Origin: a virus
DNA: 51,382 bases
Direction: 5' to 3' (one strand)
IMG/VR virus record: IMGVR_UViG_3300030060_003808
Span: 1 to 51,382 of that record
The position numbers were made by a program, and so were the translations under genes. The notes under the pieces are model-generated. The model was not told the DNA's origin. It saw only the letters and a list, made by a program, of their open reading frames with translations, and searched no databases. Below, one piece after another: positions 934 to 37,231 of this stretch (its first letter is position 1; each line of letters begins with the position of its first letter).

Positions 934-2268
934 TTACAAATCTAAGGAATCATTTTGTGCAGCTGCCATTTCTTGATCTTGGGCCAACAACATTGCACCA
1001 GCCACAGGTATTGCAACACCATATTTTTTAGAGATATCGATTACTCTGTCGTCAAAAATAACATAGTTACTGGTTTGGTCACCGACTTCCGAATACCGAC
1101 TAAATTCATCCAGGTATTTATTTCCTTTAATACCAACTGAATCTAATAACTCAGATGTTTTTTTAGCACCGATAAGCCCCTTCAACTCTCCTGTTAGACT
1201 GGCTCCACTGAAAGGTAACGGATTAGGAACAGATCTTTTTATAGCTTTTAATTCTTTTATGTAGTCACCAATGGTTTCTAGGCCTTCTAAAAAATCACTT
1301 TTTACAAATCCTTCATCAAGATTCAAACTTGAAATGGGTATTTCAAAAAGGTCATCAATTTTTTTCTTTACAGCTTTGTTTTGCTCGTTGAGCGGTTTAT
1401 CAAGATCAAGCAATTCATCTGGCGTTACTTTTAGTTTGACTTCATAAAGTTTTCCCGTGTCTTTTATTTTAATTTTGTCTATATTTTCTTCCAATAATGC
1501 AAGCTCGTCGGCATAACGCATTTTTTCATCAATCGTTCCGAAATCTTCTGCTCTTTTATAAGTTTCTTTTACTTCACCTAGCCATTTTCCAGTATCTTTG
1601 CCTGTTCTGTTTATTCTTTCAAAAAGATAAGTGTCAAAATATTCATTGCCTGTCGTGCCAACATATTCGTTGCCGATCCAAACTGGCTTTCCATCGTATT
1701 CAATGACAGCGCCCAATGCTTCTTTGTAGTTTTTTCCTACTTCATCTGCTTCTGCAAAATATAAACCACGGCCAAATGCTTGCACTCCTTCACCTGTGCC
1801 GATTTTTCCAATATCAAACTTATCGAAATCAGCAGCGGTTCCATGATAAGCAGTAATATAGTCCTCGCTTTCTGGTAAAGATGATAAGCCTTTCGCTTTT
1901 GCACCTTTGCTGGCCTTGCCTACAGCTCCGATCCCTTTGAGAGCTGTTCCAGCAATCGCTCCGTATGGTCCTGTGAGCGGAATTGAGGCATAAGCAGCAT
2001 CTCCCAGGACACCAGCTGACTGCAAAATTGCATCCAGGTATTGTTTGTTGGCAATGTTTTCAACAAAGCTCGGCATTTGCTCGGTAGGAATCATTTGTTC
2101 TTCGGTTGGCATCTCTGGATAGAAACCAAGATAGTCTGAGATCCCGGAGCTGGGTGCCATCAATCCAGCCATCCAAGCAGCTTGAGCTGGCAAAGCGCCT
2201 ACGCCTTCGCGATATGCTTGTGCTTCCTCCTGGCTGCGGAAGGGTTGAATTGAAAACTCACTGACCAT
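934..2268 (-). CDS. ADP-ribosyltransferase-like (ART polyvalent type) protein
   Basis: 444 residues. Residues 1-130 are alanine/glycine-rich with hydrophobic stretches (about 82-115), like the non-catalytic leader of ejected phage proteins. The catalytic-looking part begins with AYHGT (140-144), then GRGLYFAE (166-173), and near the C-terminus YVIFDDRVIDI (about 400-411). This H...G-(R/K)-G-(L/I)-YF pattern is typical of ART-fold domains in phage polyvalent proteins, which transfer ADP-ribose from NAD to a host target. The gene is downstream of terS, separated by a hairpin-rich non-coding region. No clear Shine-Dalgarno precedes the ATG. The ART assignment is from motifs only; activity and target are inference. 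Confidence 0.7.
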   Translation of the reverse strand: MVSEFSIQPFRSQEEAQAYREGVGALPAQAAWMAGLMAPSSGISDYLGFYPEMPTEEQMIPTEQMPSFVENIANKQYLDAILQSAGVLGDAAYASIPLTGPYGAIAGTALKGIGAVGKASKGAKAKGLSSLPESEDYITAYHGTAADFDKFDIGKIGTGEGVQAFGRGLYFAEADEVGKNYKEALGAVIEYDGKPVWIGNEYVGTTGNEYFDTYLFERINRTGKDTGKWLGEVKETYKRAEDFGTIDEKMRYADELALLEENIDKIKIKDTGKLYEVKLKVTPDELLDLDKPLNEQNKAVKKKIDDLFEIPISSLNLDEGFVKSDFLEGLETIGDYIKELKAIKRSVPNPLPFSGASLTGELKGLIGAKKTSELLDSVGIKGNKYLDEFSRYSEVGDQTSNYVIFDDRVIDISKKYGVAIPVAGAMLLAQDQEMAAAQNDSLDL

Positions 2269-2417
2269 GTAAGAAATTTAACACAAAATGAGCTCAGATA
2301 AAATTTTGTCGTAAGGAATCATTTTTTTTGGTGATTCAATGTATCTAACTTAGTTATATTTACCATCGCCATGGCCAGCGCCAAATATGGGGTGGTGGGG
2401 CCCCAGGAAAAACCAGG

Positions 2418-2515
2418 CCCTAGGAAAAAACGGATCCTAGGGACTCCAAGCCCCGCAGCCAAAGGGCTGCGACACCGCAGCGGACATGCTGCGAGCTGGC
2501 AGCGGATCGGCTGCC
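2418..2515. other. Four tandem GC-rich hairpins in a non-coding region
   Basis: The 405-base gap 2269-2673 shows no convincing gene but holds a GC-rich island in AT-rich DNA. Perfect stems: 2418-2424/2436-2442 (CCCTAGG, 11-nt loop), 2454-2460/2465-2471 (CGCAGCC, AAAG loop), 2476-2481/2488-2493 (CGCAGC, 6-nt loop) and 2498-2503/2510-2515 (GGCAGC, 6-nt loop). The last three share a GCAGC/GCTGC core and are spaced about 22 bases apart. None is followed by a convincing U-tract, so simple terminators are unlikely. A structured RNA, a packaging (cos/pac) element next to terS, or a REP-like repeat are candidates. Confidence 0.6.
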
Positions 2516-2673
2516 GTTACTGTTGTGCTCACAGTTTGCACATAGTTGCATATAAATATTAGAGCTTGCAATAGGAAAAAAGTCAATAATATCAAGGACT
2601 TAGGGCATTTTTTGTAAAAAAACAAAAAAATCTGAGCTCATCTACGGGAGAGGGCCATAACGAAGTTTATTCT

Positions 2674-3180
2674 TTACTTATCCTTGTCAGAGTAAGTCGA
2701 CGTATCAGATCCGAGCAGCTGGCCCAATCTTTCCTTGATTTGATCCCTGGACATCTTCTCCAGGTTGGCGTTGATGTTGATGTTCTGCGACCGATTGATT
2801 GACAGTCCGCCGAGTTGGTTCAGCTCTTTGATCGCTGAAACCGCAGCATTAAATTGTCCATTATCGTAAGCACTTTCCATGATCTTCCACAGCATCGTCC
2901 CGGTCTTTTGTGGTGTGATCGCATACTTCTCTCGCAGCTCATCCTGTTTGATCCGGATGGCCTTAACCACATTCGGATAATCCTTGCCGTTTAGCATTTT
3001 ATTGGCAGCTTGACTCGGGAACTCGTAGCCAGCTTTCCTGGCCGCCTCGGTCATACCGCATGCACCTTCGGTGTAATGCCAGACAAAGCTGACTTGCATC
3101 TCGGTCAACTTATGCTCCTCATCCTTCTCGAATTGAAGCGGTGCATTAACCATTGGTTTCTTGGGCTTTCTCTTTGGCAT
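2674..3180 (-). CDS. terS: Terminase small subunit
   Basis: 168 residues. LTEMQVSFVWHYTEG...MTEAARKAGY, about residues 25-50, is the helix-turn-helix signature of Terminase_2-type small subunits, followed by A..ML....YPNVVKAI and a C-terminal helical region. The protein recognises phage DNA and recruits TerL for packaging. The start follows GAGGTAAG in a plausible Shine-Dalgarno position. Unusually, the gene lies beside the helicase-primase and about 32 kb from the large subunit gene at 35666-37150. The N-terminus is rich in Lys/Pro, which suits non-specific DNA contact. Confidence 0.8.
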   Translation of the reverse strand: MPKRKPKKPMVNAPLQFEKDEEHKLTEMQVSFVWHYTEGACGMTEAARKAGYEFPSQAANKMLNGKDYPNVVKAIRIKQDELREKYAITPQKTGTMLWKIMESAYDNGQFNAAVSAIKELNQLGGLSINRSQNININANLEKMSRDQIKERLGQLLGSDTSTYSDKDK

Positions 3181-3435: not shown

Positions 3436-3522
3436 AAAGATTGCATACAGCAATATACACAGCAAGACCACCGATGCCACCAATATCAGTGTACCTAACC
3501 CTGTCAACAGTGCATCAATCAT
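3424..3522 (-). CDS. 32-residue single-pass membrane protein
   Basis: Starting at the ATG at 3522 gives MIDALLTGLGTLILVASVV... with one hydrophobic segment (about residues 8-28) and a short charged tail. GGGAG lies about nine bases upstream, which supports this start over longer in-frame versions that run inside the primase gene. It overlaps the primase stop by eight bases, consistent with coupled translation. Function is unknown; small phage membrane peptides can be holins, antiholins or host-inhibitory peptides. Nothing in the sequence discriminates between these. Confidence 0.5.
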   Translation of the reverse strand: MIDALLTGLGTLILVASVVLLCILLYAIFSND

Positions 3523-5686
3523 TCCAATTACTCCCGGATCCGCTCGATGTTCCATCGTCAACAGCGGTGTAATCGAGATCATATATCTTCTTCCCATTTG
3601 ATCTGCGCGGCTCGATGCCTCTCTCGTGTAACACACGATTCGCTTCTTTGAAGTCTGGCATCCTCGGGGCCTTAATGCCCAAATCGCGCAACAGCTTCGT
3701 CATCTGCACAGGCTTGGTATATGTGCTGCCAAAGTTGATGTTCTCTAGGATCAGATCCTCGACGCTCGATTGTGTTCGATACGCCTCATTGCTGTCTTGT
3801 AACAGCTCCCGCTCGTCCGGTGATAGAAACCAATTCTTCTGGCCTTGCACATACATAGTCTCTTTGACCTGGGCCCAGAGCTGCTGCATGTTGACACCAT
3901 GATTCACATTGATGTCTTTGACCGCGAGTACCCAGAATCTTCGATTCCCCGACGTGTCCGTCAAAAACTCGCGAGCATTGACCGATGCATAGAACGCCGT
4001 GCGGCGCTGATACGTTGTGAAGGCTCGGTCATACGGCAATCTCAGCTCATCCGTCTTCGCCGTGACAAATGCTTTCAGCTGGTCGATGTCCGACTTCTTA
4101 AAGGTCGACTCGATCTCGCCTAACTCCACAATCCAATGACTCACGGCTCGCTTCACAGAGTCCTTGTCAGAAGGGTTAAGCGTCGCACCCTCTAAGAGCC
4201 AGCCATTATTGTAATTGCAAAGGCGCTTGAACCATAAGGTTTTACCGAGTCCTTGAGCGCCCTGGAGGACCAGGATGCCTTCGAGCTCTACGCCATTCTT
4301 TTCACATGCTGCGGCCACACAGCTGATTAACCACTTTTTCAGCAGCATTTCTTTCAGCTGCGCCGACTCTTCTGTGACCAGCGAATCCATAAAGGCTTGC
4401 AGTCGGTCGGTCCCGTCCCAGGGTTCGCTCTCGATCCATTCCCGGACCGGGTTGTATTCTCTGGCCAAGACCTTGAGATAATCTCTGACCTTTGTGTGTG
4501 GGATGCCCATGTTGATGCAACGATCTTCGATCTCAATGAGACTGGCTTCCTCATACATATCGGCAATAAACTCCATGTTCGGTATGTCAATCTCCATCTT
4601 CTTCTTAATCACGTTGTATCGCACATCGACGCCGTGTGTAATCAATACGCCATTGATGTTGTCTTTGGTGTTTAAATATCTGCCGTTTGCATTGCGGTTG
4701 AAATCGTATTCAACAGGAACGTCGATCTTCTGCAAGACCACCTCGCCTTCGACGACTTCAACTTCGTTCTTATGGTCGTTGTAATCGCCTTGGCTTTCCG
4801 GCATCTGGATCTCGGCGTAACCGCCATTCTTTTGGATAAAGGCTGCCGCCTTCTTCGCTTCCTTCTCGCCTGTTTTACTATCATCGTTATCGGCCACGAA
4901 TATGTGTTTGTGCTTCGGAAAATACTGATACATGACCTCTGCGACCTTGATTAAGTTGTAAGCGTCAAATGCGACGACGACAGGCTGTGAGCGGTCAGCA
5001 TATATGGATGCGGCCGTGGCATAGCCTTCGGCATAATTCAAGCTGTCGCTTGTTTTAAAGATCTCACGGCCAAGAAGAAAAAAGCTGCCGCTTTTTTTGG
5101 AACCAGTAAGGAAACGCTTTGAGCCATCGGCTGCGATAAACTGTAGACCAACGATAGAGCCTTGATTGTCTTTAAGCGGGATCACCAGGTTATCGTGTTT
5201 GTCTTTCTTTAAACCATAGGACAAGACTTGCTTCTTCTCCAGGTACGGATGTTTAATCACGTCCTCGCATTGGTCCCAAATCGACTGCGATCGCTTCGCG
5301 GCCTGTGAATATTTCTCAGCGGATTTGACCTCGGCTTGTTTTTGTAAAGCTGCGATCTCGGCTTTCTGAGCTGGCGTCATACGATAGCGCTCACTGTTCT
5401 CTGGTTTCCAAGTCGCTGTGGGTTGGTCGGCACTGACTCTGTAATCGCCTAAACGTCCAAATGGAGAGGACTGATCGAGCCATGCTTGATACCAACCCAC
5501 GAGCTTCCTCTGGTTGCCAATGTTGATGTACGCTCTACCCACTGAGCCATCGGTAACCAGTCCCTTCTTGGGATCGGGTTCATAGCCATTGCTGGCCAGG
5601 AAATCGCTGAATTGTGTTATGTAATCCCCGGTAAATGGGGCGCTGAAATTTTTGGGTTTAGGTCCTTTTATCTTTAATGACATCAA
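3515..5686 (-). CDS. Helicase-primase (Toprim plus VirE-like P-loop ATPase)
   Basis: 723 residues. A Toprim-type region is seen at about 215-270: YAEGYATA (E220), VVAFDAYN (D241) and FVADNDDSKTG (D266, D268). A C-terminal ATPase domain of the VirE/DUF5906 type has Walker A QGAQGLGKT (475-483) and Walker B-like WIVELGEIE (518-526), then SVNAREFLTD and NRRFW (sensor/arginine-finger region, about 568-585). The protein should unwind the replication fork and prime synthesis. A lone ATG is followed directly by a second ATG; either may be used. It is transcribed away from the early operon at 5788, so the two share a 101-base divergent control region. Confidence 0.85.
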   Translation of the reverse strand: MMSLKIKGPKPKNFSAPFTGDYITQFSDFLASNGYEPDPKKGLVTDGSVGRAYINIGNQRKLVGWYQAWLDQSSPFGRLGDYRVSADQPTATWKPENSERYRMTPAQKAEIAALQKQAEVKSAEKYSQAAKRSQSIWDQCEDVIKHPYLEKKQVLSYGLKKDKHDNLVIPLKDNQGSIVGLQFIAADGSKRFLTGSKKSGSFFLLGREIFKTSDSLNYAEGYATAASIYADRSQPVVVAFDAYNLIKVAEVMYQYFPKHKHIFVADNDDSKTGEKEAKKAAAFIQKNGGYAEIQMPESQGDYNDHKNEVEVVEGEVVLQKIDVPVEYDFNRNANGRYLNTKDNINGVLITHGVDVRYNVIKKKMEIDIPNMEFIADMYEEASLIEIEDRCINMGIPHTKVRDYLKVLAREYNPVREWIESEPWDGTDRLQAFMDSLVTEESAQLKEMLLKKWLISCVAAACEKNGVELEGILVLQGAQGLGKTLWFKRLCNYNNGWLLEGATLNPSDKDSVKRAVSHWIVELGEIESTFKKSDIDQLKAFVTAKTDELRLPYDRAFTTYQRRTAFYASVNAREFLTDTSGNRRFWVLAVKDINVNHGVNMQQLWAQVKETMYVQGQKNWFLSPDERELLQDSNEAYRTQSSVEDLILENINFGSTYTKPVQMTKLLRDLGIKAPRMPDFKEANRVLHERGIEPRRSNGKKIYDLDYTAVDDGTSSGSGSNWND

Positions 5687-35665: not shown

Positions 35666-37150
35666 TTAGTAATATACTGTTCTGTTCTTCTTTAATAATC
35701 TCACCTCATCTTGGTAGTCTTCATTCAAAGATATAAAACCGCCTTGTCTAAATCTCATCAATGCCATTGTAGCACTATCGCAAAAGTCGTCATAATCGCC
35801 GAAAGGGAAGGATGCCATCTCTTCAATCACTTCATCTGCAAAATCTTTCTCTGGTGCCCATACCATGCCAGACTCAAATATGGGTGCAACACTGTTCATC
35901 CTAGCAATTTTATCCTGGCCTCTGCTCGGCGCATAAGAAGTTACAGGTATGCCCATTCTTCTCAGCTCATGTGTCAATGGTGTTCCAGACGCTTTGGCTT
36001 CAATTAAAACACAATCTGGCTCCCAATATCTATATTCTTCTAATGCCATTCTTTTAAGCTCTGGGAAGTCTACTCTTACTCTTTTTGCATCAAGTAATAT
36101 AATTTCATCTGCCTCGCCTTCTTCTCTGTTGAATATTGCCCAGGTTGTAATTGCTGAGTAATCAGCTGTTTCTTTTTTTGAAAAAGCGGTGTCATAACTT
36201 TGAATTACATAAGAATATGGCGGTATATCTGGGTTTTCCCATCGATTCCACCATTCTCTTTTAACAATAGAGCCTTCTTCCGCAGTTGGGTTTTGCATCC
36301 ATTGGCTATTCCATTTGGATATTGGCAAAGATGCTTTAACACCCAGGAGCTCCTCTTTTTTCCAAAATTCTGGCCATAAAGGATCTTCTGATTCTGGCAT
36401 AATTGCTGGAAACTCAATCACTTCCCATTGATCGGCATGATCCTCGCCTTGCCTGTTTAATACTTTTCCAACCAAATCTTTGGTGCTCCAACGTGTCATT
36501 ACTATCACGATTATTCCGCCTGGTTGTAGACGCTGCCTTGGACCAGAAGTGTACCATTCGTATGCGGACTCTAAGGCTTTTGGTGACATTGCATCTTGCT
36601 CTGAATGAGGATCATCAATAACCAAAAGATCAGCACCACGGCCTGTAATTGCACCACCCACGCCAGCTGCGAAAAACTCACCTTCTTGGTTGCTCGTCCA
36701 ACGGCCAGCTGATTTGTTATCCGCTTGTAACTGTAGCTCTGGAAAAACATGTTGGTAATCTTCGCTGCCGATAAGGTTTCTGACTTTACGACCGAACCTT
36801 ACAGCAAGTTCCGCTGTGTGTGTTGTCTGAATAATTTTTAAGTCGCCTCTTCTGCCCATCATCCAGGCCGGGAAAAATGTTGATGCAAACTCTGATTTTG
36901 AGTGCCTGGGCGGTAAACAAACAATCAATCTCTTGAGTTTACCATCTGCAATTCGATTGAATTTATCTGCTATTATTTTATGATGTCGGCCTTCAATAAA
37001 ATCTGGCCACATGTGTTTGATAAAAGACATGAAATCGGATTGGCAACTGTCTTGTTTCTCTAATTGATCGTATCGATTAATTAAAGCAAGCGCCTCGGCT
37101 TTATCTTGCTCAGACAGAATATCAAAATCTTTGTAGGAAACTTCACTCAT
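35666..37150 (-). CDS. terL: Terminase large subunit
   Basis: 494 residues from the ATG at 37150; a GTG at 37189 would add 13 residues. Walker A-like LPPRHSKSEFAS, coupling region IIQTTHTAEL, Walker B LLVIDDPHSE, then the nuclease domain with SYDTAFSKKETADYSA (first Asp), VLIEAKASGTPL and DDFCDSATMAL (last Asp). The ATPase pumps DNA into the procapsid and the RNase H-like nuclease cuts it. It sits between lysozyme and portal genes. Confidence 0.85.
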   Translation of the reverse strand: MSEVSYKDFDILSEQDKAEALALINRYDQLEKQDSCQSDFMSFIKHMWPDFIEGRHHKIIADKFNRIADGKLKRLIVCLPPRHSKSEFASTFFPAWMMGRRGDLKIIQTTHTAELAVRFGRKVRNLIGSEDYQHVFPELQLQADNKSAGRWTSNQEGEFFAAGVGGAITGRGADLLVIDDPHSEQDAMSPKALESAYEWYTSGPRQRLQPGGIIVIVMTRWSTKDLVGKVLNRQGEDHADQWEVIEFPAIMPESEDPLWPEFWKKEELLGVKASLPISKWNSQWMQNPTAEEGSIVKREWWNRWENPDIPPYSYVIQSYDTAFSKKETADYSAITTWAIFNREEGEADEIILLDAKRVRVDFPELKRMALEEYRYWEPDCVLIEAKASGTPLTHELRRMGIPVTSYAPSRGQDKIARMNSVAPIFESGMVWAPEKDFADEVIEEMASFPFGDYDDFCDSATMALMRFRQGGFISLNEDYQDEVRLLKKNRTVYY

Positions 37151-37231
37151 AAGCGAGCCGGGGGGCAAGGTAGTGACGTAAAAGACCACCCGACTCTAAG
37201 CGAAACCGCCTAGACGTAGTATTACACATCG

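Follow-up and report, generated by a model that had tools for sequence, protein, structure and literature searches.

The tandem GC-rich hairpins that lie 3' of the terminase small subunit gene (terS) in this viral DNA are best explained as the by-product of a 22-bp, GCWGC-rich palindromic unit, three copies of which stand in the spacer between two conserved DNA boxes. In the same proposal the conserved boxes (A to D) would form a single-copy, cis-acting region, read as double-stranded DNA, at which TerS starts packaging (pac/cos-type). We consider the two parts taken together to be moderately probable from sequence comparison, and put the chances that the boxes serve packaging at roughly even. 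The 51,382 bases analyzed here, which make up one virus record, are referred to as the window, and the features discussed are collected in Table 1.

Table 1. Genes, conserved boxes and hairpins of the terS region, with terL, by position in the window.
Feature	Position	Strand	Remarks
ART-PolyVal-like gene	934-2268		downstream of terS; Pfam score below its cut-off
Box D	2316..2339	(-)	TTGAATCACCAAAAAAAATGATTC region; conserved in part of the family
Box C	2340..2358	(-)	TATAACTAAGTTAGATACA; conserved in relatives
Fourth stem	2418-2442		CCCTAGGA/TCCTAGGG; 8 bp, 9-nt loop; overlaps box B
Box B	2420..2447	(-)	GGAGTCCCTAGGATCCGTTTTTTC and following bases; conserved in relatives, single-copy
Clade-specific insert, 67 nt	2449..2515	(-)	box A-box B spacer; three diverged 22-bp units, three stems inside
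Hairpin	2454-2471		CGCAGCC/GGCTGCG, 7 bp
Hairpin	2476-2493		CGCAGC/GCTGCG, 6 bp
Hairpin	2498-2515		GGCAGC/GCTGCC, 6 bp
Box A	2516..2550	(-)	two TGTGCAAC-like repeats, dyad TGTG-AG-CACA (2524-2533), ACAGTAAC; near-fixed distance from terS in relatives
terS	2674..3180	(-)	terminase small subunit, 168 aa; PHROG 51 (E 4.7e-8); Pfam Terminase_2 (E 2.7e-5; score 25.3, just under the cut-off of 26.1)
VapE-like primase-helicase gene	3515-5686		upstream of terS
terL	35666-37189		far from terS

All four of the perfect stems reported in the preliminary description of this DNA are present. Three of them share a GCAGC/GCTGC core, and the spacing of about 22 bases given for them proved to be exactly 22 nt, the three units lying in one insert. 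Within it, six GCWGC motifs, alternately GCAGC and GCTGC, start at 2455, 2466, 2477, 2488, 2499 and 2510, a pitch of exactly 11 bp, and the window holds no second run as long as six at this pitch. Three perfect stems of at least 6 bp appeared in 1 of 20,000 mononucleotide shuffles of the 67-nt insert, and elsewhere in the window no stretch of 100 nt contains three such stems. Self-match of the insert at 22 bp was 0.64, a periodicity reached by none of 5000 shuffles, and the z value of its DNA fold was about -3 on both strands. The departure of the island from the base composition of its surroundings was likewise borne out, with a GC content of 0.63 against 0.29 on either side. These stem, periodicity and GC statistics demonstrate that the island is not a product of chance; as sequence, the hairpin feature is both real and significant. 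The stems had been described as flanking terS; they do adjoin the gene, but on its 3' side only and not on both sides. The dyad of box A is in phase with the repeat: exactly 22 bp separate its center from that of the nearest hairpin, whether by chance or by design. A hidden coding sequence in the insert was considered and rejected, as the substitutions between the window and two related loci (L007 and L096) look non-coding when judged by eye in the alignment.

Scanning IMG/VR contigs for relatives of terS gave 498 coding stretches, and 80 of these were retained; together with those of a second scan, about 160 loci were compared, including some that are copies of one contig. Nearly all of these relatives lack the GCWGC insert, and most have about 12 nt in the corresponding spacer; the only carriers found were the window, L002, L004, L006, L007 and L096. 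The insert is identical to that of the window in L002 and L006, and also in L004 outside an extra insert of its own. In L007 and L096 no perfect stem is left and folding does not surpass that of shuffles (z of -0.17 and +0.50, versus -3.0 in the window), the motifs being gone as well while boxes A and B are almost unchanged. The units of the window resemble one another more closely than those of either of these two loci do, which suggests, without proof of the direction, that the repeat has decayed in L007 and L096. In a four-sequence alignment, 14 of 67 insert columns were variable compared with 1 of 64 in the adjoining flanks (Fisher p 5e-4), and inside the insert variation was about equal in stem columns (9/38) and the others (5/29). 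The contrast was weaker when 120-nt flanks were taken, as in L007, where the insert differed by 13.4% and the flanks by 9.2% and 10.0%. The covariation check proposed at the outset revealed no compensatory change in any stem pair: among the three distinct insert sequences available, two-sided change was seen in 0 of 19 stem pairs, and 17.5% of cells were unpaired. For the fourth stem, the pairing is not common to the relatives. Because stem columns are about as variable as the other insert columns, and the stems are not kept and show no two-sided changes, we read the hairpins as a probable by-product of the tandem repeat, and infer that the insert is nearly neutral.

Conceivably, the GCWGC hairpins have instead a function of their own in this clade, such as that of phased protein sites reinforcing a packaging or regulatory complex. 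The exact 11-bp phasing of the six motifs, the perfect stems of the window and the identity of the insert in the nearest relatives would fit such a role. We nevertheless consider it improbable, given that the insert is missing in most relatives, and that the sister loci L007 and L096 lost motifs and stems alike next to boxes that hardly changed. The stems might still have a clade-specific role in the subclade formed by the window, L002, L004 and L006, which have the insert in common (in L004, outside its extra insert). Conservation among relatives with the same terminase is a property to be expected of a packaging site, and the hairpins alone do not show it, since the insert is mostly missing and varies freely where present. 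The lack of conservation in relatives that the preliminary description had named as evidence against the feature was thus found for the hairpins, but not for the flanking DNA.

Two further origins had been offered for the island, and neither fared well. A REP-like or other mobile palindrome inserted at the spacer would agree with the fact that this is a recurrent insertion point, and with the presence in L004 of another insert inside one of the hairpin loops. However, the window has neither dispersed copies nor a second cluster of the unit, the insert was found in only five contigs besides the window, the pattern of its first unit was found in viral_contigs only at this locus (four contigs), and it is without similarity to the other inserts at the same spacer. 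This explanation is already largely refuted, and we regard it as very unlikely. A structured RNA, whether a small RNA or a terminator made from the tandem hairpins, could account for the folding of the 404-nt region, which on either strand surpasses that of shuffles (z of -4.1 and -5.7), but is hardly credible on the remaining evidence. No Rfam match reached the gathering score (the only one, isrK with an E of 0.24, was far below the cut-off), an alignment of the region from 33 relatives gave no consensus fold (energy -0.33), and stems were lost in L007 and L096 without compensation anywhere in the clade. There is also no U-tract in the direction of terS, in agreement with what had been noted before. 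An intrinsic terminator of terS was rejected, in that the sole terminator-like site is on the opposite strand and has a poor tail, and chance alone would produce about one site of this kind. In relatives, terminator-like alternative hairpins (of the AAAGCCTT...AAGGCTTT or AAGTCA...TGACTTTTTT types) are seen about 70-120 nt past the terS stop (A1 columns 75-120).

The non-coding DNA around the insert, in contrast, is strongly conserved. On the terS strand of relatives, box A is found about 160 nt after the terS stop and consists of TGTGCAAC-like repeats, then TTGTG-NN-CACA and then AnAGTAAC. It is followed by a spacer, usually of about 12 nt, and by box B (GGAGTCCCTnGGAnCCGnTTTTTT); box C (TATAACTAgGTTtGAcaCA) starts 87-89 nt after the start of box B where both were found, and box D comes next. 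Boxes A to C are conserved over the approximately 160 loci, and each has one good match in the window. In distant relatives boxes A and B are changed and their models score poorly, while box C is still recognized in many. At the center of the box A dyad, 62 relatives have AG and 11 have CT, and other dinucleotides are almost absent, a pattern compatible with a symmetric site in double-stranded DNA. The boxes remain 3' of terS when the next gene differs (RusA-like, ART, oxygenase or others). The RusA-like gene is on the same strand as terS in most relatives and convergent with it in 11 loci of one clade (L082, L084-L087, L106 and L108-L112), and because of this convergence the boxes are not its promoter in those 11 loci. 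In the window, the gene that bears the PHROGs name RusA-like (485-904) has a Pfam match to PDDEXK_15, a phage PDDEXK endonuclease. The non-coding region lies between the two arms of a 12-bp inverted repeat, ATGAGCTCAGAT / ATCTGAGCTCAT, at 2288-2299 and 2630-2641; this repeat is partial in L006 and absent in L007.

Packaging sites usually adjoin terS, as in P22, SPP1 and lambda. Many of the known ones are located upstream of or inside the gene and not 3' of it, which counts against a packaging role for boxes A to D. We prefer this role for them because they are single-copy, are conserved as DNA, adjoin terS whatever the next gene is, and show no consensus RNA fold. A packaging site had been among the options listed for the island, and the idea is plausible for the conserved boxes around it, but not for the hairpins themselves. 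The main rival is a replication origin, in which the boxes would supply iteron-like repeats, a dyad and A/T-rich stretches close to a VapE-like gene, and the hairpins would be a neutral or helper insert. Box A does combine a dyad with TGTGCAAC-like repeats at intervals of 10-11 bp, and the window shares with most relatives whose DNA extends far enough a VapE/Toprim gene upstream of terS. However, the distance between terS and the primase gene varies, whereas the boxes stay at a near-fixed distance 3' of terS, and we judge an origin to be possible but rather unlikely. Contig ends cluster near box C, but their reading as physical DNA ends was rejected; they fall inside the conserved block and are better taken as assembly breaks. 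No terminal repeats were found in the window or in the related records G001 and G002, and a search of genome_contigs for prophages that might reveal the host found no terS relatives.

The spacer between boxes A and B is an insertion hotspot, which tolerates inserts and so collects repeats. Inserts other than GCWGC occupy this spacer in L004, L005, L043, L059, L082, L113, L122 and L124. That of L004 (4581-4695; also in L083 and L094) is 115 nt long, contains three copies of the 27-nt unit CCTAGTCCATCATAGAGATCATCTTCC, and sits inside the loop of the hairpin that corresponds to 2454-2471 of the window; its opposite strand reads as EDDLYDGLG repeats, which had no match in annotated phages. L005, whose terS is 99% identical to that of the window, has no GCAGC hairpins and carries the start of a different array, ended by the contig end. 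Arrays of 388 to 596 nt fill the spacer in L043, L059, L082, L113, L122 and L124. Over all array loci (L113, L122/L123, L124, L082/L106/L112, L043, L059/L100 and L005/L107), the repeat units measure 17-54 nt and are in direct orientation.

The units of these arrays end in AAY-(ACN or GTA)-GCW-GTW-GG, which translates to N-T/V-A-V/I-G with synonymous variation, and they resemble the repeats of phage tail fibers (tblastn against annotated tail fibers, E 5e-5 to 9e-4, with a query peptide composed from several array units and partly bridging frames). In-frame versions of the units occur in long ORFs of tail-fiber type in the related records G001, G002 and G005. The arrays themselves are not one gene, because successive units differ in frame and stops intervene. 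The distances between unit ends are mirror-symmetric about one central CTTATAAACA element, located at 0.52-0.55 of each array. The spacings are 38,40,17,40,17, then 82, then 17,40,17,40,38 in L113; 40,47,40,17, then 82, then 17,40,47,40 in L124; 48,49,54, then 73, then 54,49,48 in L059; and 49,53,53,40,38, then 82, then 38,40,53,53 in L082, while L122 and L043 are nearly mirror-symmetric. A CCTTATAAACAAAGG hairpin, similar to those 3' of terS, recurs at the center of each array. The two halves of an array resemble each other chiefly as direct repeats and, in some arrays, also less strongly as inverted ones. A left arm that is the reverse complement of the right is clear in L059, L082 and L043 and weak or absent elsewhere, and was rejected as a general description, direct similarity being stronger throughout. 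A common RNA fold of the arrays was also rejected (z from -8.3 in L059 to +1.4 on the other strand of L113).

A DNA pattern for the array units matched, besides the arrays, only by chance in coding genes, and the L082 array had no DNA match in annotated phages. The first pattern for mid-sized spacer inserts gave no match, and L097, which matched the next one, proved to be a coding gene. Similarity between the window insert and the arrays of other relatives was no better than in shuffles, and homology between them was rejected. A tentative and rather doubtful suggestion is that, in a widespread family of marine phages, repeat arrays dock at the A-B spacer, the GCWGC repeat of the window being a different occupant. 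The non-coding arrays of tail-fiber type (N-T-T-G-x-x-N-T/V-A-V/I-G in shifting frames) could be a nucleoprotein site organized around a dyad, or a silent store of tail-fiber segments. These arrays are the most unusual find of this work.

These results tell a striking but poorly conserved structure apart from the conserved element around it. The four short boxes next to terS make a concrete candidate packaging site for a large and mostly uncultured family of marine phages, and the candidate site contains a hypervariable gap in which relatives hold mirror-symmetric, tail-fiber-like arrays. A limited literature search found no report on the non-coding region or the arrays, which is weak evidence of absence.

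Among the closest annotated phages are pelagiphages of the HTVC023P type (HTVC023P, HTVC027P and 023Pt_psg01), whose TerL is 57-63% identical to that of the window. Between 39000 and 44454 the window encodes CsgG and CsgF (curli-type), a FecR-domain protein and a CHASE2-adenylate/guanylate cyclase; CsgG and CsgF fit with the curli-type genes reported in the HTVC023P group (PMC9599517). The terS region sets the window apart: TerS of HTVC027P is only 33% identical to that of the window, the boxes have no convincing match at the HTVC027P locus (L089), and the terS region of the window has no DNA match in any annotated phage. The window insert resembles REP/BIME palindromes in being made of short, GC-rich tandem palindromes in intergenic DNA, but unlike them it is found at one site and in one clade, is not dispersed, and has no transposase linked to it among the annotated parts. 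The candidate site formed by boxes A to D resembles the pac/cos sites of P22, SPP1 and lambda types in being single-copy, conserved non-coding DNA that adjoins terS and contains repeats and a dyad. It differs from those sites in its position 3' of terS and in an A-B spacer that takes inserts as long as about 600 nt; the hairpin insert forms no part of what is conserved.
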